From: Actinopolymorpha alba DSM 45243
GTDB lineage: Bacteria > Actinomycetota > Actinomycetes > Propionibacteriales > Actinopolymorphaceae
Reading direction: 5' to 3'
DNA length: 64,000 nt
Assembly: GCF_000373925.1 (NCBI RefSeq)
Contig: NZ_KB892708.1
Span: forward strand, 310,001-374,000
Position numbers and translations under genes: made by a program. Shown in pieces: positions 9,087 to 38,312 of this stretch; the first letter of the stretch is position 1, and every line of letters starts with the position of its first letter. The notes beneath the pieces were generated by a model. The model ran no database searches, was not told the DNA's origin, and saw nothing but the letters and a program-made list of their open reading frames with translations.

Positions 9087-9136
9087 CGGCGACTGTCGTA
9101 CGCGGGCGCACACGCTGAACCAACGCGGGCGTCGAC

Positions 9137-9181
9137 CTGGTGGAGGCGCCTCGGCTTCTTTGCCGAAACTCCTCCGCCAAG
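9137..9181. repeat. Degenerate palindrome, TTGGCGGAGG family
   Basis: An imperfect hairpin with arms TGGAGGCGCCTCGGC and GCCGAAACTCCTCCGCCA. It is a decayed relative of the palindrome at 23337-23384 (same outer CTCCGCCAAG and inner CTCGGCTTC). It lies just after sdhB and may help termination. Confidence 0.6.
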
Positions 9182-9263
9182 TTCGGGGCGTGCCGCAGGT
9201 GGTGTCTCACATTGTGTATGCCTCCTGCCGTGCGCGGCGGCGGGGTATGTTCCCACCAGGCAA

Positions 9264-9303
9264 GGGAACTTGCCGCGTGAGGTGGGAACTTGCCGTGTGA
9301 GGT
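9264..9303. repeat. 20-bp tandem direct repeat
   Basis: Two adjacent copies of GGGAACTTGCCGCGTGAGGT, differing at one base (9264-9283 and 9284-9303). Related fragments with TGAGGT and GGCAAAT/GGGAAAT words occur near 9930-9975 and 38130-38180, in the same kind of non-coding DNA. Confidence 0.75.
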
Positions 9304-9457
9304 GCAGCAAAGGGTGTACGCCATTCGAGACGCTGCTGTATTCAGTGAGAGGCTTATTCAAAACCCGGTCCCGCCCGACAGCTTGCTGTGCCCTGGCCCG
9401 AGCGGTGGTCGACGTGGGACCCGGCGGCGATGTGGCAGTCCAGGCAGCCATGCTCAC

Positions 9458-9514
9458 CGAACCTTGAGTAGATGCCCACTTTCGCGCGGGAACTGGGCAT
9501 CTAGTCGAGGTTCG
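9458..9514. repeat. Palindrome, TTTCGCGCG-loop family
   Basis: Arms CGAACCTTGAGTAGATGCCCA (9458-9478) and its near-perfect inverse (9494-9514) surround a loop with TTTCGCGCGGGAA. The loop resembles the TTTCGCGCGAAA centre of the elements at 9704 and 37957, so these look like one repeat family with variable arms. Confidence 0.65.
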
Positions 9515-9522
9515 ACGCAAGG

Positions 9523-9553
9523 CCCTTCAGATCTGCCCACGATATGAGAGAAG
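9523..9553. repeat. Interspersed repeat fragment (CATATCGTGGGCAGATCTG)
   Basis: The minus strand reads CTCATATCGTGGGCAGATCTGAAG. The same word occurs on the plus strand at 53130-53160 (with CGC for CGT) and in part at 23284-23306. All three are intergenic and next to other repeats. Confidence 0.6.
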
Positions 9554-9571
9554 TCCTTTGGTCTGGTCGAC

Positions 9572-9615
9572 TTGTCATAGGTTTCTCGGTCTGTTAGCCG
9601 AGAAACCTATGACAA
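9572..9615. repeat. Palindrome, GGTTTCTCGG family, copy 1
   Basis: Arms TTGTCATAGGTTTCTCGG and CCGAGAAACCTATGACAA flank an 8-base loop. It differs from the copies at 10082 and 23222 by a paired change (CATAG/CTATG instead of CAGAG/CTCTG), so the base pairing is kept although the sequence changed. Confidence 0.85.
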
Positions 9616-9703
9616 CTCGGGGAGCCTCATTCGAAACCCTTTACGCCGGCAGGTCGCGGCATCGTGAAAGCAGCGGGAGGCGACGTGGCGGAGGCACGAC
9701 CAA

Positions 9704-9828
9704 GATCATTTCTGGAAAGCGGCCCAGGCTTCGCGCGAAACCTGGGCGATTTCTGTAAAGTTGATCATGGCCCGGTTCCCGCTCAGATCCAGCAACCTCT
9801 CCGGCGCCAGAGGTTTTGAATAAGCCAC
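9704..9828. repeat. 125-bp interspersed repeat, degenerate copy
   Basis: A palindromic half (GATCATTTCTGG... centre TTCGCGCGAA ...GTTGATCATGG) is followed by a non-palindromic tail ending CCAGAGGTTTTGAATAAGCC. The same two-part arrangement occurs, better preserved, at 37957-38083. A further inverted fragment of the tail, AGGCTTATTCAAAACC, is at 9351-9366. Confidence 0.75.
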
Positions 9829-9830
9829 TG

Positions 9831-9880
9831 AGATCGTGAAGACTTCAGGGGGTTATAGCACCCCAAAGTCTTCACGATCT
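9831..9880. repeat. Perfect hairpin before the GNAT gene region
   Basis: Arms AGATCGTGAAGACTT (9831-9845) and AAGTCTTCACGATCT (9866-9880) are perfect inverses, with a second GGGG/CCCC pairing inside. It belongs to no other family seen here. Apart from the repeats listed, 9087-10136 holds no supportable gene. Confidence 0.8.
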
Positions 9881-10081
9881 GAGATGGGCTCGCCCATCCG
9901 AGGCAGCCGCGCCCGCCAGCTGCCGGACCTTACGTGGCAAATGCTTACCTCACGTGGCACATTTCCGATTGCATGGCGGGAAATTCCGCGTACCCACACC
10001 GGAGAAGGCGTAGACAAAGACGGTTCCCGAAGCACGCTCGGTATTGCGGTCCCGGTCTGCCTGCATCAGGGTGGACCCCCG

Positions 10082-10129
10082 AATTGTCAGAGGTTTCTCG
10101 GTCTTTTAGCCGAGAAACCTCTGACAATT
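10082..10129. repeat. Palindrome, GGTTTCTCGG family, copy 2
   Basis: Perfect 20-bp arms at 10082-10101 and 10110-10129 surround an 8-base loop. It ends 7 bases beyond the stop of the minus-strand acetyltransferase gene, so it could serve as that gene's terminator. Confidence 0.85.
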
Positions 10130-23170: not shown

Positions 23171-23221
23171 CCTGGCCCCTATGAGGCGGCCGGCGACCTG
23201 ATGGGGAGGCGCAAGCCCGAG

Positions 23222-23265
23222 TTGTCAGAGGTTTCTCGGCTAAGAGACCGAGAAACCTCTGACAG
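23222..23265. repeat. Palindrome, GGTTTCTCGG family, copy 3
   Basis: Arms TTGTCAGAGGTTTCTCGG and CCGAGAAACCTCTGACAG flank the loop. The loop reads as the reverse complement of the one at 10082, so the element is inserted in the opposite orientation. Confidence 0.85.
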
Positions 23266-23283
23266 CCCGGCAAGCCCAGCGAC

Positions 23284-23306
23284 CTTGTTTCATATCGTGG
23301 GCTCAC
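23284..23306. repeat. Interspersed repeat fragment (CATATCGTGGGC)
   Basis: TTGTTTCATATCGTGGGCTCAC shares its centre with the words at 9523-9553 and 53130-53160. Confidence 0.5.
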
Positions 23307-23336
23307 TATGCGAGATCGCCCATCGAGGTTGCGGTG

Positions 23337-23384
23337 ACTTGGCGGAGGAGTGTCGGCTTAGAAGCCGAGACACCTCCGCCAAGT
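23337..23384. repeat. Palindrome, TTGGCGGAGG family, intact copy
   Basis: Arms ACTTGGCGGAGGAGTGTCGGCTT and AAGCCGAGACACCTCCGCCAAGT pair with one or two internal mismatches. The rest of 23171-23657 holds no supportable gene. Confidence 0.85.
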
Positions 23385-27818: not shown

Positions 27819-29392
27819 CCACGACGGCCTACCGCCGCCACCTCGAGCTGGACCCGGCGACCGTGCGCAGAGCGCGGTCACTGGCCCGGCGCGCGGGGCG
27901 CCCGATCGTCCAGCTGGCCCGGGCCCACACGACTGTCTCCGTCGAGCGCGCCGTGCTGCGGCTCGCCGGGCTCACCGGAGCCGACCCCGACGGCACGCCG
28001 TGGGTCAACCGCCTGGTGGACGCCGTGCGCGCCGACGTCGGGCTCGACCACGGAGTCGCGCTCCCGGTCTGGGACGCGCTGACCCGTGGTACGGCCGACG
28101 ATCTCGCCGCCCTTGCCCAGAAGGCGTCCGCCGGCTCGGTGCGGTTCCGGATGCCGGACGGCTCGGGGGCCCGACAGGCTGCCCGCGCCGCGCGGCGTTC
28201 GGTCAACGCGGGCATCCGTCGGATCGACACCCGGCGGCGGGAGCGTGAGCGCCTGGTCAAGCGACTCGGCGACCCGCCCCAGCGGCCGTGGATCTACCTC
28301 ATCGTGGCGACAGGCGACATCTACGAGGACATCCCGCAGGCCCAGGCGGCCGCGCGCGAGGGCGCCGACGTCATCGCCGTGATCCGCTCGACCGGGCAGT
28401 CGCTGCTGGACTTCGTACCCGAGGGCGCGACCCGGGAGGGGTACGCCGGCACCTACGCCACGCAGGAGAACTTCCGGCTGATGCGGGCGGCCCTCGATGA
28501 CGTGAGCAAGGAGCTCCGGCGCTACGTCCGGCTCACCAACTACGCCTCCGGTCTGTGCATGCCGGAGATCGCCACGCTCGCGGGGCTCGAGCGCCTCGAC
28601 ATGATGCTGAACGACTCGATGTACGGCATCCTCTTCCGCGACATCAACCCGATCCGCACCTTCGTCGACCAGCGGTTCAGCCGCCAGATCCACGCCCGCG
28701 CCGGCATCATCATCAACACCGGCGAGGACAACTACCTCACCACCGCGGACGCGGTCGACGCCGCCCACACCGTGACGGTCTCGCAGCTGCTGAACGAGTA
28801 CTTCGCGAAGGAGGCGGGACTCGAGGACTGGCAGCTCGGCCTCGGGCACGCGTTCGAGATCGACCCGGCCCGGCCCGAGTCGTTCCGGCTCGAACTCGCC
28901 CACGCCCTGCTCGCCCGCGAGCTGTTTCCGAAGGCGCCACTGAAGTGGATGCCGCCGACCCGGCACATGGACGGTGACATCTTCCGCGGCTATCTGCTGG
29001 ACGGCTTCTTCAACCTGGCCGGCATCCTCACCGGCCAGCAGATCCTGCTCGTCGGCATGATGACCGAGGCGGTCGTGACGCCGTGGTTGTCTGACCGCGA
29101 CCTCGCATTGCGCAACGTCCGCTACGTTCTCAACGCCTGCGGCAACCTGCACGAGGACTTCCAGCCAGCGCCGGACGGCTTCATCGCCCAGCGCGCCCGC
29201 CAGGTGCTCGCCGAGGCCGTCGACCTGCTCGAACGCATCACTGACGACGGCCTGCTCAACGCGATCGCGGACGGAACCTTCGGGCTGATGCGCCGGCCCG
29301 CCTCCGGCGGCAAGGGACTCGACGGCGTGGCGAAGAAGTCGAGCGACTACTACAACCCCGCCACCGAACTCCTGGAGGAGGCGAGGCCATGA
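27815..29392 (+). CDS. kamD: Beta-lysine 5,6-aminomutase alpha subunit
   Basis: A 525-residue homologue of KamD/OraS-type aminomutase large subunits, the PLP- and cobalamin-using catalytic TIM-barrel component. Recognisable segments are RPWIYLIVATGDIYEDIPQA, GTYATQENFRLMR, NTGEDNYLTTADAV and KWMPPTRHMDGDIFRGY. With KamE it moves the 6-amino group of beta-lysine to C5. ATGA overlaps join it to the genes on both sides. Confidence 0.92.
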   Translation: MTTTAYRRHLELDPATVRRARSLARRAGRPIVQLARAHTTVSVERAVLRLAGLTGADPDGTPWVNRLVDAVRADVGLDHGVALPVWDALTRGTADDLAALAQKASAGSVRFRMPDGSGARQAARAARRSVNAGIRRIDTRRRERERLVKRLGDPPQRPWIYLIVATGDIYEDIPQAQAAAREGADVIAVIRSTGQSLLDFVPEGATREGYAGTYATQENFRLMRAALDDVSKELRRYVRLTNYASGLCMPEIATLAGLERLDMMLNDSMYGILFRDINPIRTFVDQRFSRQIHARAGIIINTGEDNYLTTADAVDAAHTVTVSQLLNEYFAKEAGLEDWQLGLGHAFEIDPARPESFRLELAHALLARELFPKAPLKWMPPTRHMDGDIFRGYLLDGFFNLAGILTGQQILLVGMMTEAVVTPWLSDRDLALRNVRYVLNACGNLHEDFQPAPDGFIAQRARQVLAEAVDLLERITDDGLLNAIADGTFGLMRRPASGGKGLDGVAKKSSDYYNPATELLEEARP

Positions 29393-30156
29393 GCGGGCGC
29401 AGCATCGTCCGGCCGTACGGTGACACCACCGGGGACGGCATGGTGCAGCTGTCGTTCACGCTGCCCGTCCCGCACGACAAGCGCGCCGAGGGCGCGGCAC
29501 TGCAGTTGGCGGAGAAGATGGGCCTCGACCCGGCGATGGTGGTGCACGCCAAGGCGGTCGGGCCGGCGTTCACGTACTTCATCGTCTATGGGCGGGTGAG
29601 CCACCTGGTCGATCTCTCGAAGGTCGAGGTGGTCGAGCGTGACTACCCACTGCTCAGTCCGAAGGAAGCCAACCTGACGATCAGGCGTGGGCTGCGGCGC
29701 CGGCTCGTCGTGGTCGGCGCCTGCATCGGGACGGACGCGCACACGGTGGGCATCGACGCGATCCTCAACGTCAAGGGGTTCGCGGGGGAGAAGGGGCTGG
29801 AGTACTACCGCGAGCTCAAGGTGGTCAACCTGGGTGCGCAGGTGGGGGTTCCGGACCTGGTCGCCAGCGCCCGCCGGGAGCACGCGGACGCCATCCTGGT
29901 CTCGCAGGTCGTGACCCAGAACGACGCGCACATCCGGAGTACGCGGGAGATGGCGGCGGCGTTCCGGGAGGCCTACGACGAAGCGGACCGCCCCCTGCTC
30001 GTGGTGGGCGGGCCGCGCTTCCACGAGTCGATGGCCGCTGATCTCGGCGTCGACCGGGTCTTCGGTCGCGGTACCACGCCCGGAGAGGTCGCGAGCTATC
30101 TCGTCCACGCCCTGGTGGACAGCCGATCCACGCCGTACCGAGAAAGGACCGCATGA
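29389..30156 (+). CDS. kamE: Beta-lysine 5,6-aminomutase beta subunit, cobalamin-binding
   Basis: A 255-residue subunit. The DxHxxG cobalamin-binding motif is in GTDAHTVGIDAI (about residues 118-129), placing B12 in the base-off/His-on form. It works with KamD. Its stop (TGA in GCATGA) overlaps the ATG of the first 80-bp micro-ORF unit; AAAGGA five bases before that ATG gives a ribosome site. Confidence 0.92.
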   Translation: MSGRSIVRPYGDTTGDGMVQLSFTLPVPHDKRAEGAALQLAEKMGLDPAMVVHAKAVGPAFTYFIVYGRVSHLVDLSKVEVVERDYPLLSPKEANLTIRRGLRRRLVVVGACIGTDAHTVGIDAILNVKGFAGEKGLEYYRELKVVNLGAQVGVPDLVASARREHADAILVSQVVTQNDAHIRSTREMAAAFREAYDEADRPLLVVGGPRFHESMAADLGVDRVFGRGTTPGEVASYLVHALVDSRSTPYRERTA

Positions 30157-30236
30157 GCGAGCGCAGCGAGCGAATCATTCAGCACAGTGTGCCTGGTGCC
30201 TCATGCGCGCCCGGAGCGAAGCGAGGACGTGCATGA
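30153..30236 (+). CDS. Micro-ORF 1 (27 aa) of the tandem unit
   Basis: Encodes MSERSERIIQHSVPGASCAP followed by GAKRGRA and a stop. ATG overlaps the kamE stop and the ORF's own stop overlaps the next ATG. The unit's 3' end contains GAGGA five to six bases before the next start. No peptide function is known; the role may lie in passing ribosomes on. Confidence 0.55.
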   Translation: MSERSERIIQHSVPGASCAPGAKRGRA

Positions 30237-30316
30237 GCGAGCGCAGCGAGCGAATCATTCAGTACAGCGCCATTAGTGCCTCATGCGCGCCCGGAGCGAA
30301 GCGAGGACGTGCATGA
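30233..30316 (+). CDS. Micro-ORF 2 (27 aa) of the tandem unit
   Basis: Encodes MSERSERIIQYSAISASCAP followed by GAKRGRA. It differs from units 1 and 3 only at codons 11-15, where the middle of the unit has diverged while both ends are unchanged. Overlaps both neighbours by ATGA. Confidence 0.55.
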   Translation: MSERSERIIQYSAISASCAPGAKRGRA

Positions 30317-30396
30317 GCGAGCGCAGCGAGCGAATCATTCAGCACAGTGTGCCTGGTGCCTCATGCGCGCCCGGAGCGAAGCGAGGACGCGCATGA
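30313..30396 (+). CDS. Micro-ORF 3 (27 aa) of the tandem unit
   Basis: Same peptide as micro-ORF 1. Its stop overlaps the ATG of the hotdog-fold gene at 30393, so it links the lysine operon to that gene. Confidence 0.55.
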   Translation: MSERSERIIQHSVPGASCAPGAKRGRA

Positions 30397-30397
30397 G
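30360..30397 (+). promoter_or_regulatory. Start-codon hairpin at the end of a micro-ORF unit
   Basis: CTCATGCGCG (30360-30369) pairs perfectly with CGCGCATGAG (30388-30397). The stem contains the ATG of the next gene and the loop holds the GAGGA ribosome site. Units 1 and 2 form the same stem with one G-U pair; the 33126 unit forms it as CTCATGCGCA with TGCGTATGAG. A ribosome translating the upstream ORF would melt the stem and free the next start. Confidence 0.6.
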
Positions 30398-30899
30398 CGA
30401 GCAGGCTTCCACCTCGACCTCTACGTCAGCCTCAGGCTCCGCTGAAGGCTCAAGCTCCAGTTCAGCTGCAGCATCAACCTCAACCTCAGCTTCAGGGTCT
30501 GCTTCCGGGGCCGACCCGCGACTTGGCCTCACCGTCGCCCATCGCCGGTACGTGTCGTACGCCGATGCGCACTACGCGGGCAACCTGGTGGCCGGCGGGT
30601 ACGTGCTCTGCCTGTTCGGCGACGTCGCGACCGAGGTGTGCGTACGCACCGACGGGGACGAGGGGCTGCTGGCGTCGTACGCCGACGTGCAGTTTCGCGC
30701 CGCCGTACGCGCCGGCGACCTGCTCGAGGTGTCGGCCACCGTGGTGCGGGTTGGGAGGCGGAGCCGCGACCTGGACCTCGCGGCGCGAGTCCTCGCCCGG
30801 GGGGAGCCGGAGCGTGGGGAGTCGGCCGCGCGGGTCCTCGACGAGCCGATCGTCGCGGTGACGGCCCGGGCGACGGTTGTGGTGCCGGCATTCCCATGA
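30393..30899 (+). CDS. kal: Hotdog-fold protein, probable 3-aminobutyryl-CoA ammonia-lyase
   Basis: A 168-residue protein. Residues 1-40 are a Ser/Thr/Ala/Gly low-complexity tail (STSTSASGSAEGSSSSSAAA and more). The hotdog domain follows (VSYADAHYAGNLVAGGYVLC, LLASYADVQFRAAVRAGDLL, RVGRRSRDLDLAARV). In lysine fermentation Kal, a hotdog protein, removes ammonia from 3-aminobutyryl-CoA to give crotonyl-CoA, and the kdd-kamDE context supports this reading. The disordered tail is unusual for the family. Other hotdog thioesterase roles remain possible. Confidence 0.75.
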   Translation: MSEQASTSTSTSASGSAEGSSSSSAAASTSTSASGSASGADPRLGLTVAHRRYVSYADAHYAGNLVAGGYVLCLFGDVATEVCVRTDGDEGLLASYADVQFRAAVRAGDLLEVSATVVRVGRRSRDLDLAARVLARGEPERGESAARVLDEPIVAVTARATVVVPAFP

Positions 30900-31026
30900 T
30901 CTCGCTGCCTGCGATACGCTCCGTGCTGTCCCGCTTGCCGATCTTGTAAGCCTTCGACACGCCGGGATCCGACACGCCGAACGTCCGACAAAATTTGGGC
31001 GTCGCGCAGGTGGACCGAAAGGGCCG

Positions 31027-31061
31027 ATGACCTGCGTGTTTATGGCGTCTGTGCAGGTCAT
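31027..31061. promoter_or_regulatory. Inverted repeat in the kal-lnt gap
   Basis: ATGACCTGC (31027-31035) and GCAGGTCAT (31053-31061) are perfect 9-bp inverse arms spaced by 17 bases, with a TTGACA word at 31069. It may be an operator or part of a promoter region; no regulator gene adjoins it. Confidence 0.4.
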
Positions 31062-31316
31062 GGGCTGGTTGACACCACCCGGCCTTCCTCGCCATCGTCG
31101 TGTCCTGTCCACCGCAGGTCGATTCGGCTCGGGCCGGAGTCCTGGTCCTCGCGTGAGGAGTCCGGAGCCAGTTCTCGTACCACGCGACGACTTGGGACCC
31201 GCTCCGTGCGGTGGGGTGGCCACGGAACGGTCCGCCGCCCAGTAGACAACGATGCGTGGCACGCAGCCTGCGGGTCGCGCGTCGGTCCGAAGGGCGTGCG
31301 GGCCGTTCCGTCTCTC

Positions 31317-31349
31317 CAAGAGCCCGCGACCTCCGAGGTCCCGGGCTTG
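31317..31349. terminator. GC-rich hairpin before lnt
   Basis: CAAGAGCCCGCGACCT and AGGTCCCGGGCTTG can pair with small mismatches around a 3-base loop. Followed by TCTGTT, a weak T-rich tail. The remainder of 30900-31512 shows no gene. Confidence 0.4.
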
Positions 31350-31512
31350 TCTGTTACGTGCACTTTGCCCCGCCCAGTTCTGAGCCCGGGGACACCAGAA
31401 CACAGCTACGCGTTGTACCGTCCTGACATCTGGTGACGCCGGGATCCGTCGCGTTCGTCATCGACGTTCGTGAGCCCCCGTACCGGCTCAGTCCCCACCT
31501 CGGAGAAGGGCG

Positions 31513-33129
31513 GTGGCCTTGACGGTCGACGAGCGCACTGTCGAGCGCGCGAGCGTCGCGACGAGCGCCACCGGCACCAGGAGACGCATGGACACGCTGC
31601 CCTCGCGGCTCGCGCTCGCGGTGGTGGCAGGCGCCTCCCTCGCCGTGACCTTCCCGCCGCTCGGCTGGGTGTGGCTCATGCCGTTCTCCGTGGCCGTTCT
31701 CACGCTGGTCTGTCGGGGCGTGAGGGTACGCCGGGGAGCCCTGCTGGGCTTCGGGTTCGGAGTGGGCTTCTTCCTCGTGCTGCTGCAGTGGTCCCGGGTC
31801 GCCGGCCTCGACGGTTGGCTCGCCCTGAGCCTGGTCGAGGCCGCGTTCATGGCGGCTCTCGGCGCCGGTCTCACCCTCGTCACGCGGCTGCGGCTCTGGC
31901 CGGTCTGGGCCGCCGCTCTCTGGGTGGGCGTCGAGTTCGCACGGGGGGTGTTCCCGCTGGGGGGATTTCCGTGGGGTCGGCTCGCGTTCGCCCTCGACGA
32001 CACCCCTATGGCCGCGCTCGCGAGCCTGGCCGGTGTGCCGTTCGTGTCGTTCGTCGCCGCCCTGGTCGGCAACCTCCTGCTCTGGGCTGTGCTCGCGCGT
32101 GGGCGCGGGCTCGGCGTCCGGGGAGTTGCCGTGGGCGCGGCCGCGGCGCTCGCCTTCGGCGGGCTGCTCGTGCCACTGCCGACCGCGGGGGAGGGCACGG
32201 CCACGGTCGCTGTCGTCCAGGGCAACATCCCCGGCCGCGGACTGGAGTTCCTCGGCCGCGCGCGTACCGTCACCCGTAACCACCTCGCGGCCACCCAGGA
32301 GCTGATGCGCGACGTCGAGGCGGGCAGGGTGCCCCGGCCCGACTTCGTGCTCTGGCCCGAGAACTCCACCGACATCGACCCGTTCAACGACCTGATCACC
32401 CGGGACACCGTGGAGCAGGCTGTCCACACCGCCGGCGTACCGATCCTGGTCGGTGCCATCCTCGACGGCCCAGGCCCCTACTACCGTCGTACGACCGGTG
32501 TCGTCTGGGACCCGAAGACCGGGCCGGGACAGACCTACGTCAAACAGCATCCGGTGCCGTTCGGGGAGTACATCCCGTTCCGCCAGCTCCTCCTGCCCTA
32601 CATCGACCGGCTGCAGCTGGTGGGGCGCGACACCTACGCGGGTAACAAGCCTGGCACGATGCGGATCGCCGGCTACGACGTCGGTGAGGTCATCTGCTTC
32701 GAGATCGCCTACGACGGCATCGTCCGCGAGGTCGGCCAGGGAGACTCGCAGATGCTGGTCGTCCAGACCAACAACGCCACCTTCACTGGCACCGGCCAGC
32801 CTCAGCAGCAGTTCGCGATCACCCGGATGCGCGCGATCGAGTACGGCAAGGAAGCTCTCGTCGCGTCCCCGAACGGCATCAGCGGCATCATCGCCCCCGA
32901 CGGAAAAGTGATCGCGCAGTCGAAGGAGGCCACCCGCCAGGTGTACGTCGCGAAGGTGCCGCTGCGCACCACGCCGACGTTGGCCGCCCGCCTGGGCGCG
33001 GTTCCCGAATGGTTATTGATCGCCGTCGGCCTGGGCGCGGTTGGTCTCGCCCTCAGTCGCCGGCGCCGGCGCACGTCCACGGATCCGGACACCGATCGGG
33101 CGACACCAGAGCACAAGGGGGCCGCGTGA
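31513..33129 (+). CDS. lnt: Apolipoprotein N-acyltransferase
   Basis: A 538-residue integral membrane enzyme: about six or seven N-terminal membrane helices followed by an extracytoplasmic nitrilase domain. The catalytic triad is visible as Glu in LWPENSTD (about residue 283), Lys in YVKQHPVPFGEY (about 343) and Cys in VICFEIAYDG (about 395). It adds the third acyl chain to lipoproteins such as the sugar-binding protein above. GTG start with GGAGAAGGG upstream. In mycobacteria the equivalent domain is fused to Ppm1; here the two are separate and joined by a micro-ORF. Confidence 0.93.
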   Translation: MALTVDERTVERASVATSATGTRRRMDTLPSRLALAVVAGASLAVTFPPLGWVWLMPFSVAVLTLVCRGVRVRRGALLGFGFGVGFFLVLLQWSRVAGLDGWLALSLVEAAFMAALGAGLTLVTRLRLWPVWAAALWVGVEFARGVFPLGGFPWGRLAFALDDTPMAALASLAGVPFVSFVAALVGNLLLWAVLARGRGLGVRGVAVGAAAALAFGGLLVPLPTAGEGTATVAVVQGNIPGRGLEFLGRARTVTRNHLAATQELMRDVEAGRVPRPDFVLWPENSTDIDPFNDLITRDTVEQAVHTAGVPILVGAILDGPGPYYRRTTGVVWDPKTGPGQTYVKQHPVPFGEYIPFRQLLLPYIDRLQLVGRDTYAGNKPGTMRIAGYDVGEVICFEIAYDGIVREVGQGDSQMLVVQTNNATFTGTGQPQQQFAITRMRAIEYGKEALVASPNGISGIIAPDGKVIAQSKEATRQVYVAKVPLRTTPTLAARLGAVPEWLLIAVGLGAVGLALSRRRRRTSTDPDTDRATPEHKGAA

Positions 33130-33200
33130 GCGAGCGAACAATTCAACGCAGCGCCTTGAGTGCCTCATGCGCACCCGGAGCGAAGCGAGGATGCGTATGA
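33126..33200 (+). CDS. Micro-ORF 4 (24 aa), diverged single unit
   Basis: Encodes MSERTIQRSALSASCAPGAK followed by RGCV. GTG overlaps the lnt stop (GTGA) and its TGA overlaps the ppm1 ATG (ATGA at 33197-33200). Relative to the 84-base ORFs it lacks 9 bases near the 5' end, an in-frame change, so the start-to-start distance (71) keeps the same frame offset as 80. GAGGA stands five bases before the next ATG. Confidence 0.6.
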   Translation: MSERTIQRSALSASCAPGAKRGCV

Positions 33201-33973
33201 GCGAGTCAGTGGAGCGGACCTTCGCCGACCTGGGTCGGATCCTCGTCGTCCTGCCTACCTACAACGAGGCGGACAACCTCGAGCGGACCCTGAAGCGGCT
33301 CCGGGCGTCGGTGCCGGAGGCGGACGTCGTTGTCGCCGATGACGCCTCGCCTGACGGGACGGGCGAGATCGCCGACCGGGTAGCGGCTGAGGACCCCCAG
33401 GTTCACGTACTACACCGGCCCAGGAAGGCAGGTCTTGGCACCGCCTACCGCGAGAGCTTCGCCTGGGGGCTGGAGCGCGGTTACGACGTCCTCTGCGAGA
33501 TGGACTGCGACGGCTCCCACCAACCCGAGGAGTTGCCGCAGCTGCTGGCGGCCCTGCGTACCTCCGACCTGGTGATCGGGGCCCGCTGGGTGCCGGGCGG
33601 TCGGGTCAAGAACTGGTCGAAGGCGCGGGAGGTGTGGTCCCGCTGCGCGAACCTCTACGCGCGGCTTGCGCTCGGCCTCCCGCTGGGCGACGCGACCGCG
33701 GGGTTCCGGGCGTTCCGCCGAGCTACTCTCGAGGGGATCGACCTCCACGACGTCGCGTCGCAGGGGTACTGCTTCCAGATCGAGCTTGCCTGGCGGGCCT
33801 ACCGGACCGGTTTCCGGATTGCCCAGGTGCCGATCGTGTTCCTCGAACGCGAGTACGGCACCAGCAAGATGGACCGGAACGTCATGATCGAGTCCTTCCG
33901 CCGGGTGACCGCGTGGGGCGCGGCGTACCGCGTCCAGCAGATCCGGGAGCTGGTGTCCGGGAAACGAAGGTGA
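33197..33973 (+). CDS. ppm1: Polyprenol monophosphomannose synthase
   Basis: A 258-residue GT-A fold, family 2 glycosyltransferase. LVVLPTYNEADNLERTL is at about residues 16-32, VVADDASPDGT near 48-58 and the metal-binding CEMDCDGSHQP near 100-110. It moves mannose from GDP-mannose to polyprenyl phosphate, the donor for lipoglycans and protein O-mannosylation. It lacks C-terminal membrane segments, and in actinobacteria it cooperates with Lnt. It overlaps fxsA by GTGA (33970-33973). Confidence 0.92.
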   Translation: MSESVERTFADLGRILVVLPTYNEADNLERTLKRLRASVPEADVVVADDASPDGTGEIADRVAAEDPQVHVLHRPRKAGLGTAYRESFAWGLERGYDVLCEMDCDGSHQPEELPQLLAALRTSDLVIGARWVPGGRVKNWSKAREVWSRCANLYARLALGLPLGDATAGFRAFRRATLEGIDLHDVASQGYCFQIELAWRAYRTGFRIAQVPIVFLEREYGTSKMDRNVMIESFRRVTAWGAAYRVQQIRELVSGKRR

Positions 33974-37638: not shown

Positions 37639-37956
37639 AATGCCTCCATCCCCCTCCATCGTGTATGGACCTCGATGGCCCTAACGTCTGGGCCCCCGCC
37701 CAGGATTCCCCGGAGCGGAACGCGCGAATCGCAGCGCGTTGGTGCGTTTGCTGCTAGTAGCGGCCGATGTCCTGATCCGGAAGCGCCTGGCGGGTGCACG
37801 CTGCCGGGGAGGAACAGCTCGTGGGGCGATGCCGTGAGGCCCTATCTCAGAACGTCCGCCGGGTGCGCCGAAGCTCCGCCGCCACAGGTGAGGTTTGGTA
37901 AGCCTTCGCGGCGAGCCGCCGGTCGTCTCACAGGCCGGACTGCTGGCGGCCCGGTT

Positions 37957-38083
37957 CATGATCAACTTGCAGAAATCGCCCAGATTTCGCGCGAAACGTG
38001 GGCGATTTCTGCAAGTTGATCATGGTCCGGTTCCCGCTCAATCAGATCCGGCAACCTCTCCGACGCCAGAGGTTTTGAATAAG
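37957..38083. repeat. 127-bp interspersed repeat with perfect 26-bp palindrome
   Basis: Arms 37957-37982 and 37999-38024 are perfect 26-bp inverses around a loop that itself contains the palindrome TTTCGCGCGAAA. A non-palindromic tail follows (CCGGTTCCCGCTCA ... AGAGGTTTTGAATAAGCC), matching 9704-9828. The remaining parts of 37639-38312 hold no gene; 38130-38250 carries more fragments of the same non-coding repeats. Confidence 0.85.
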
Positions 38084-38312
38084 CCACGATGTCAGACAGC
38101 GGGGGTCCTTGCGCGGCAAGTCGTCACCATGCAAGGCAAATTGGGCGTGCTTCGTGGGGACATGGCGCGTGAGGTCGGGTCCGTCTCACATGGCGTACAC
38201 CCAACGGTTTCGGATGCTGAGACATGTGGGTCCTTCGCTGACCCGGCAGCCGTTTTGAGAAGCTCCACGGGCTACTGTCCGGAGCCCTGGCGCTTCGACG
38301 GGAGAGGCGTAC

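Follow-up and report, generated by a model that had tools for sequence, protein, structure and literature searches.

According to a 2025 review (PMC12548453, citing Supply et al. 1997), mycobacterial interspersed repetitive units (MIRUs) appear to be mobile, insert at start codons and carry an open reading frame (ORF) coupled with a -4 spacing. These repeats have long been used for strain typing, including the fingerprinting of tuberculosis bacteria. Here we describe a repeat of comparable layout in Actinopolymorpha alba DSM 45243 (class Actinomycetes, order Propionibacteriales), taking as a starting point a window of 64,000 nucleotides (nt), positions 310,001 to 374,000 of contig NZ_KB892708.1 (assembly GCF_000373925.1). 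The window holds a single 71-nt unit between lnt and a ppm1-like gene, and a tandem array of three 80-nt units between the genes for an aminomutase subunit and a 4HBT protein. We consider it likely that the 71/80-nt unit is one copy of a dispersed, MIRU-like mobile element of Actinomycetes, that DTGA is its insertion site and that its micro-ORF and hairpin restore expression by translational coupling.

The element inserts exactly at the start codon, at DTGA. The lnt-ppm1 junction is without a unit in all five congeners and in one member of the family, where ppm1 begins with GTGA or ATGA lying on the lnt stop; the old start of ppm1 is GTG and its new start ATG. The array is missing from the aminomutase-4HBT junction of six relatives (the five congeners and one member of the family), which likewise place ATGA or GTGA on the upstream stop, and the C-terminus RTA of the upstream protein is common to A. 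alba and five of these six array-free relatives. A third comparison, with 1.58 Mb of one genome whose genus, Kribbella-like, is inferred from identity to named Kribbella loci, retained six loci of 27 matching pairs after those with 27-59% downstream identity had been dropped as paralogues. Here the junctions of five named insertions at four sites (L157; L163 and L165; L192; L197) are empty, each with a gene starting where the insertion would lie; one more site (L107) is occupied. These empty orthologous sites imply that insertion is precise and that the left DTGA is the old start. Together with the left tetranucleotides (ATGA in 115 copies, GTGA in 29, CTGA in one), they place insertion at DTGA start-codon sites, as described for MIRUs.

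The same position is seen across a set of 186 copies, 66 of them from A. alba, 5 from relatives and 115 from named genomes. Of 156 testable arrays, 142 have a coding start at the right-end ATG, compared with 150 of 1104 control ATGAG sites; the 14 failures include internal array units and long frames failing only the rule on GC content at third codon positions (GC3), and also arrays (L011, L013, L048) that the count splits owing to the merging of identical copies. On the left, DTGA is the stop of the upstream coding frame in 75 of 137 cases (control, 97 of 1104), and 86 of 146 first units are preceded, at -18 to -4, by a Shine-Dalgarno-like motif (control, 374 of 2920). By these counts the element is located where translation begins, and roughly half of these sites were already coupled to the upstream gene.

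Two further observations concern the sites themselves. The start of what we take, from its sequence, to be a hemA-like gene carries a unit in a Kribbella (L107), in the Kribbella-like genome (G012) and, in diverged form, in a family member (L079), by repeated insertion or by old inheritance. At another locus (L024, positions 342 and 1582) two insertions lie about 1.2 kb apart, the first before a 387-codon ORF and the second shortly after it.

As with MIRUs, the A. alba unit is a short interspersed repeat with dozens of copies in the genome. Used as a query, the 80-nt unit yields 66 BLAST matches, some of them partial, in 7.98 Mb; counted by hand, they come down to about 49 separate places, including two degenerate ones. 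A search for the core with at most two mismatches, over the loci of this genome and the window, gives 71 contexts, a few of them by chance, and the right-end rule [AG]TGA leaves 66 copies once identical ones are merged. Tandem copies occur too, as in the triple array of the window; the array count for this genome gives 13 arrays of two and 2 of three, an undercount owing to the same merging. Beyond this genome, a scan of named genomes with a pattern of loop plus ATGAG recovered at least 111 stretches; the 80 listed by name come mainly from Kribbella, with others from Phytohabitans, Nocardioides, Kutzneria, Xylanimonas, Couchioplanes and Solihabitans, and an uncultured actinomycete is also among the matches listed. 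A covariance model (R1), run over the order under strict filters with about 38 candidates scored per genome, so that copy numbers are lower bounds, matches 48 of 117 genomes at E <= 0.001, in 7 of 17 genera; under these filters it finds no copy in the five congeners. About 49 places in A. alba against no model match in its congeners would fit a recent acquisition or a burst. A core-only match in one congener (L078 in G003) was judged not to be an element.

In the class as a whole, matches at E <= 1e-4 come from 32 of 374 genomes, which belong to 16 of 134 genera. Most of the 20 class regions that were read have the same 5' module (DTGAGCGAGCGnAGCGAGCGAATC...CACAG) joined to a different right end, which again holds a Shine-Dalgarno-like GAGG and a subsequent start, usually ATGAG; two regions (L322, L323) are irregular, and L320, which looks like a chance hit of the model, was excluded from the members. 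Plasmid and phage collections searched with the triple array, and viral contigs in one pattern scan, gave no result, and we found no description of the element family in the open-licence PMC literature, several of the queries being poor ones.

The unit between lnt and ppm1 agrees to the base with the cassette described in the first-pass annotation of this DNA: its GTG (33126-33128) overlaps the lnt stop TGA (33127-33129), its own TGA (33198-33200) overlaps the ppm1 ATG at 33197, and the start-to-start distance of 71 leaves the same frame offset as 80, both being 2 modulo 3. The stem that had been proposed, CTCATGCGCA with TGCGTATGAG, is likewise borne out: it consists of ten pairs, among them one G-U and one A-U, the latter closing the loop and, judged by sequence, confined to this unit among the 74 copies, picked for variety, that make up our alignment A1. 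The shortening by nine bases, which had been read as divergence of this particular unit, proved instead to be a length class common to other loci and genera. The unit lacks one repeat of an internal 9-nt series of the GAGCGNAGC type, and 10 of the 74 aligned copies, from other loci and other genera too, have the 71-nt form; length alone is therefore no proof of frame selection, and we rejected this difference as evidence for it.

Pairing of the hairpin is supported by the family at large. In A1, 96.3% of the cells in stem columns are paired, against 20-46% for slid partners; 68 cells carry two-sided changes, against 24.7 +- 3.2 in shuffles, and covariation reaches 0.313, against 0.127. An unconstrained consensus fold returns the same hairpin core, extended into the loop, with the GG of GAGG paired to CC. 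At lnt-ppm1 the hairpin (33160-33205) folds with z = -3.88 relative to shuffles, falling to only -1.77 in a 90-nt context. The loop block is almost invariant, third codon positions included (mean entropy 0.02, compared with 0.95 in the 5' part), so coding does not explain its conservation. In 22 pairs of copies standing before similar genes, the 3' half is mostly little changed and the 5' half drifts.

The reading frame is also kept. Unit length, measured from the left motif, could be assigned in the 156 of 186 copies with one clear left end; the 30 dropped copies were ambiguous or had two or more mismatches. L116 is among them, and so is L187, to which this method gave 76 nt but which, compared with L092, reads as an 80-nt unit that starts with GTG. 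Length is 80 nt in 127 of the 156, and for the other 29 the difference from 80 is a multiple of three in 22 cases but not in 7, so that 149 copies have a length that keeps the frame and, with it, the -4 nt overlap known from MIRUs. The 7 off-frame lengths include L031, listed as 67 but better read as 71, and the degenerate L069; the 22 in-frame ones are not independent events, because the 71-nt class, with one 9-nt repeat less, recurs across genera. None of 127 non-redundant 80-nt units (from 143) has an in-frame stop, where column shuffling expects 16.2 +- 3.1 units with one; the other two frames are interrupted in 16 and 33 units. The synonymous fraction of changes at positions 5-39 is 0.434, compared with 0.274 +- 0.067 under column permutation (P = 0.012), and over positions 5-47 it is 0.376, compared with 0.276 (P = 0.03).

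Those copies in which the frame has been lost are informative about what is kept. In L119 and its orthologue L164, in L184 and in L198, which make three independent events if the orthologues are counted once, the micro-ORF runs in a frame that is neither the normal one nor that of the gene, and this shifted frame stops 5, 5, 5 and 8 nt past the right-end ATG. A first stop at +5 or +8 in that same non-gene frame occurs in 13 of 149 arrays tested, the shifted copies included. Two other copies, L106 and L116, are shifted into the frame of the downstream ORF and run on for 208 and 43 codons; we rejected this run-on as evidence, since the shifted frame is the gene's own. These exceptions suggest that coupling, that is, the closeness of stop and start, is kept rather than the peptide, the near stops of the shifted copies being the best evidence. 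Three further copies (L020, L066, L070) carry an in-frame repetition of the 5' module, 39 or 30 nt long, ahead of a unit that is either complete or shortened, which suggests modular growth.

The first-pass annotation had held that divergence preserving frame and pairing points to selection on translation and RNA structure, and had proposed that the genomic copies be aligned to look for an excess of in-frame indels, of synonymous changes and of compensatory stem changes. Each of these is present in the family, in the 22 of 29 non-80 lengths that are multiples of three, the synonymous excess at positions 5-39 and the double-sided stem changes, and the absence of in-frame stops points the same way; the claim therefore mostly holds family-wide, though not on the single 9-nt difference from which it had been drawn. 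Indels outside multiples of three, which it had named as refuting, do occur in a few copies (L106, L116, L119/L164, L184, L198).

Several observations weigh against a coupled, hairpin-bearing insertion at start codons. A further family member (L208) has neither a unit nor DTGA at ppm1, and in 62 of 137 cases the first unit does not lie on the stop of a preceding gene, so that coupling to such a gene is no requirement. As to the stem, four pairs with two-sided change are reached by 26 of 500 shuffles and 13 pair types by 53 of 500, and one of the two other units that were folded, at 30153-30248 in the window, does no better than shuffles (z = 0.02; the other, z = -2.09). Conservation of the loop and of ATGAG in the named loci is partly a matter of ascertainment, because the pattern with which they were gathered fixes most of both, while leaving free the variable pairs 53-55/78-80 and the 5' half. 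The deficit of stops is in part linkage, codon 7 contributing 10.05 of the expectation and the other codons 6.7, and single changes that make a stop are not significantly depleted under column permutation (P = 0.13 for positions 5-39, 0.07 for 5-47). Finally, frameshifted copies exist.

How an insertion at a start codon might be tolerated can be sketched as follows. After insertion, the old start (GTGA at the lnt stop) would begin a micro-ORF of 24-27 codons, read by ribosomes arriving from the upstream gene or by those that formerly started the gene itself. The hairpin at the right end would present the GAGG ribosome-binding sequence in its loop block and the new start, ATGAG, in its 3' arm. 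A ribosome translating the micro-ORF would melt this hairpin, which covers both, and would stop at the TGA overlapping the ATG, whereupon the same ribosome or a newly recruited subunit could start the gene. By such a coupled re-start the element would make its own insertion tolerable, and selection would preserve the pairing of the stem and the nearness of stop to start, with the peptide as such probably of no importance. Both the gating of initiation by the hairpin and the preservation of expression are predictions from sequence; mobility is seen as presence or absence at orthologous sites, and movement would presumably be the work of an enzyme. We regard the element as real, apparently constrained and mobile-looking.

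Among other explanations, the one that survives best, though still improbable, is a repeat acting purely at the level of DNA, similar to REPs or MITEs, in which a hairpin recognised by a transposase targets start regions containing TGA, recent copying having produced the open frame and the coupling as side effects. The invariance of the loop block exceeds what coding or ribosome binding would need, even if the search pattern fixes part of it, the hairpin could serve as a recognition structure in DNA, and hairpin and DTGA are accompanied in the A. alba genome by nine matches to Y1 transposases, which are at most candidate partners of the element. Against such a repeat, the 0 stops in 127 units, the synonymous excess and the near stops of shifted copies suggest selection at the level of translation. 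Even less probable is a host regulatory leader, an attenuator or translation switch for lnt-ppm1 and other genes: as in translational switches, the start codon lies within the hairpin, as does part of the ribosome-binding site according to the consensus fold, but the element precedes many different genes, it is missing from both window junctions in all five congeners, where the model finds no copy at all, and Rfam has no match over 29900-33500 up to E = 1. A functional small protein, encoded by the micro-ORF and multiplied by duplication, is very unlikely, for although the frame is kept open and an MSERSE-type N terminus is common, the middle of the peptide drifts, its length varies, frameshifted copies persist and Pfam gives no match for the two micro-peptides searched.

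In the triple array, which spans 30153-30392, successive starts fall at 30153, 30233 and 30313 for the units and at 30393 for the downstream gene, a constant spacing of 80 with ATGA at every junction. The features of both loci are collected in Table 1.

Table 1. Units, their parts and the flanking genes at the two occupied junctions (window positions)
Feature	Position	Strand	Basis
Aminomutase subunit gene (OAM_dimer + B12-binding), upstream of the triple array	29389..30156	+	Pfam
80-nt unit 1, micro-ORF MSERSERIIQHSVPGASCAPGAKRGRA	30153..30236	+	sequence
80-nt unit 2	30233..30316	+	sequence
80-nt unit 3	30313..30396	+	sequence
4HBT hotdog protein gene, downstream of the triple array, start inside ATGA	30393..30899	+	Pfam
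lnt, apolipoprotein N-acyltransferase (LNT_N + CN_hydrolase)	31513..33129	+	Pfam
71-nt unit / 24-codon micro-ORF, GTG 33126 to TGA 33198-33200	33126..33200	+	sequence, alignment A1
GTGA, micro-ORF start on lnt stop	33126..33129	+	sequence, comparison with relatives
Hairpin 5' arm CTCATGCGCA	33164..33173	+	sequence, covariation, folding
Loop block CCCGGAGCGAAGCGAGGA, almost invariant between genera	33174..33191	+	alignments
Shine-Dalgarno-like GAGG brought in by the element, 6 nt upstream of the ppm1 ATG; putative function	33187..33190	+	sequence
Hairpin 3' arm TGCGTATGAG, includes ppm1 start codon	33192..33201	+	sequence, covariation, folding
ATGA, ppm1 start overlapped by micro-ORF stop	33197..33200	+	sequence
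ppm1-like family-2 glycosyltransferase gene (Glycos_transf_2); name ppm1 from the first-pass annotation	33197..33973	+	Pfam

The window contains other repeats as well. A second dispersed palindromic family (TTGTCAGAGGTTTCTCGG...CCGAGAAACCTCTGACAA) has five window copies, at 9133-10127 and 23218-23382, with 63-100% identity. A paired repeat of about 37 + 46 nt, 89-96% identical, lies at 9722-9828 and 37951-38087 and may be a MITE-like element, with an inverted repeat between 37951 and 38030; a long palindrome with 40-nt arms, 93% complementary, stands at 2189-2276.

Small "MSERSER..." ORFs in genomes of this kind are suggested to be parts of elements rather than separate proteins. In the cultivable genera Kribbella and Phytohabitans, a related-looking family provides recent insertions, unoccupied sites and natural experiments in frameshifting, through which the mechanism of mobility, and equally the coupling of translation in GC-rich bacteria, can be tested directly.

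Among known systems, REPs lie outside genes and are not known to contain a coupled reading frame. REP/BIME and other repeats derived from RAYT or IS200/IS605 elements resemble the present one in being short hairpins, probably moved in trans, and possibly in lying beside a fixed tetranucleotide; the element differs in sitting at a start codon and in carrying a coupled frame. With translationally coupled leader ORFs, such as the short ORF of iraD (PMC5574718), it shares a short ORF coupled to the next gene, but those leaders serve gene-specific regulation and the element is an interspersed repeat.

MIRUs come closest. In a genus labelled Mycobacterium from its PE-family hits, a pattern search found MIRU-like repeats in 33 of 60 genomes, and one genome has a 56-nt coupled micro-ORF between genes that we take to be a senX3-like ORF and regX3. 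In 17 of 37 mycobacterial copies read, the micro-ORF stops in NTGA over a start codon, mostly in units of 50, 53 or 56 nt; the frame of the remaining 20 either continues or ends in some other way. The two kinds of repeat are alike in running from DTGA to DTGA with a Shine-Dalgarno-like GAGGAG before the right start in the mycobacterial copies, in targeting start codons, in their coupled small ORF and in forming tandem copies at some loci. They differ in that the present element is usually 71-80 nt long and has a different 5' half, and in that its start codon is enclosed by a long hairpin with covarying pairs; among the mycobacterial copies read, right-end coupling was seen in only those 17. 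We do not take sequence homology to MIRUs as proven. Model R1 has no significant match in 39 Mycobacterium genomes (best E = 0.02); the 14-nt core GAGCGAAGCGA, 13 of whose positions are identical to MIRUs, is equalled by 33-168 of 1000 dinucleotide shuffles for three typical units, and for L339 by 525-787 of 1000, which is not significant.

It is conceivable, if somewhat short of probable, that MIRUs and the present element are branches of a class-wide superfamily of mobile repeats acting as translation adaptors, with a common start-codon target, micro-ORF and hairpin-gated ribosome-binding site and start. Its members would have swapped hairpins between lineages while keeping the layout, would be moved in trans by a machinery that recognises the conserved GAGCGAAGCGAGGA block, and would be selected for coupling even after frameshifts. 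By layout rather than by shown descent, the element appears to work like a MIRU and may be regarded as a non-mycobacterial variant of that kind.
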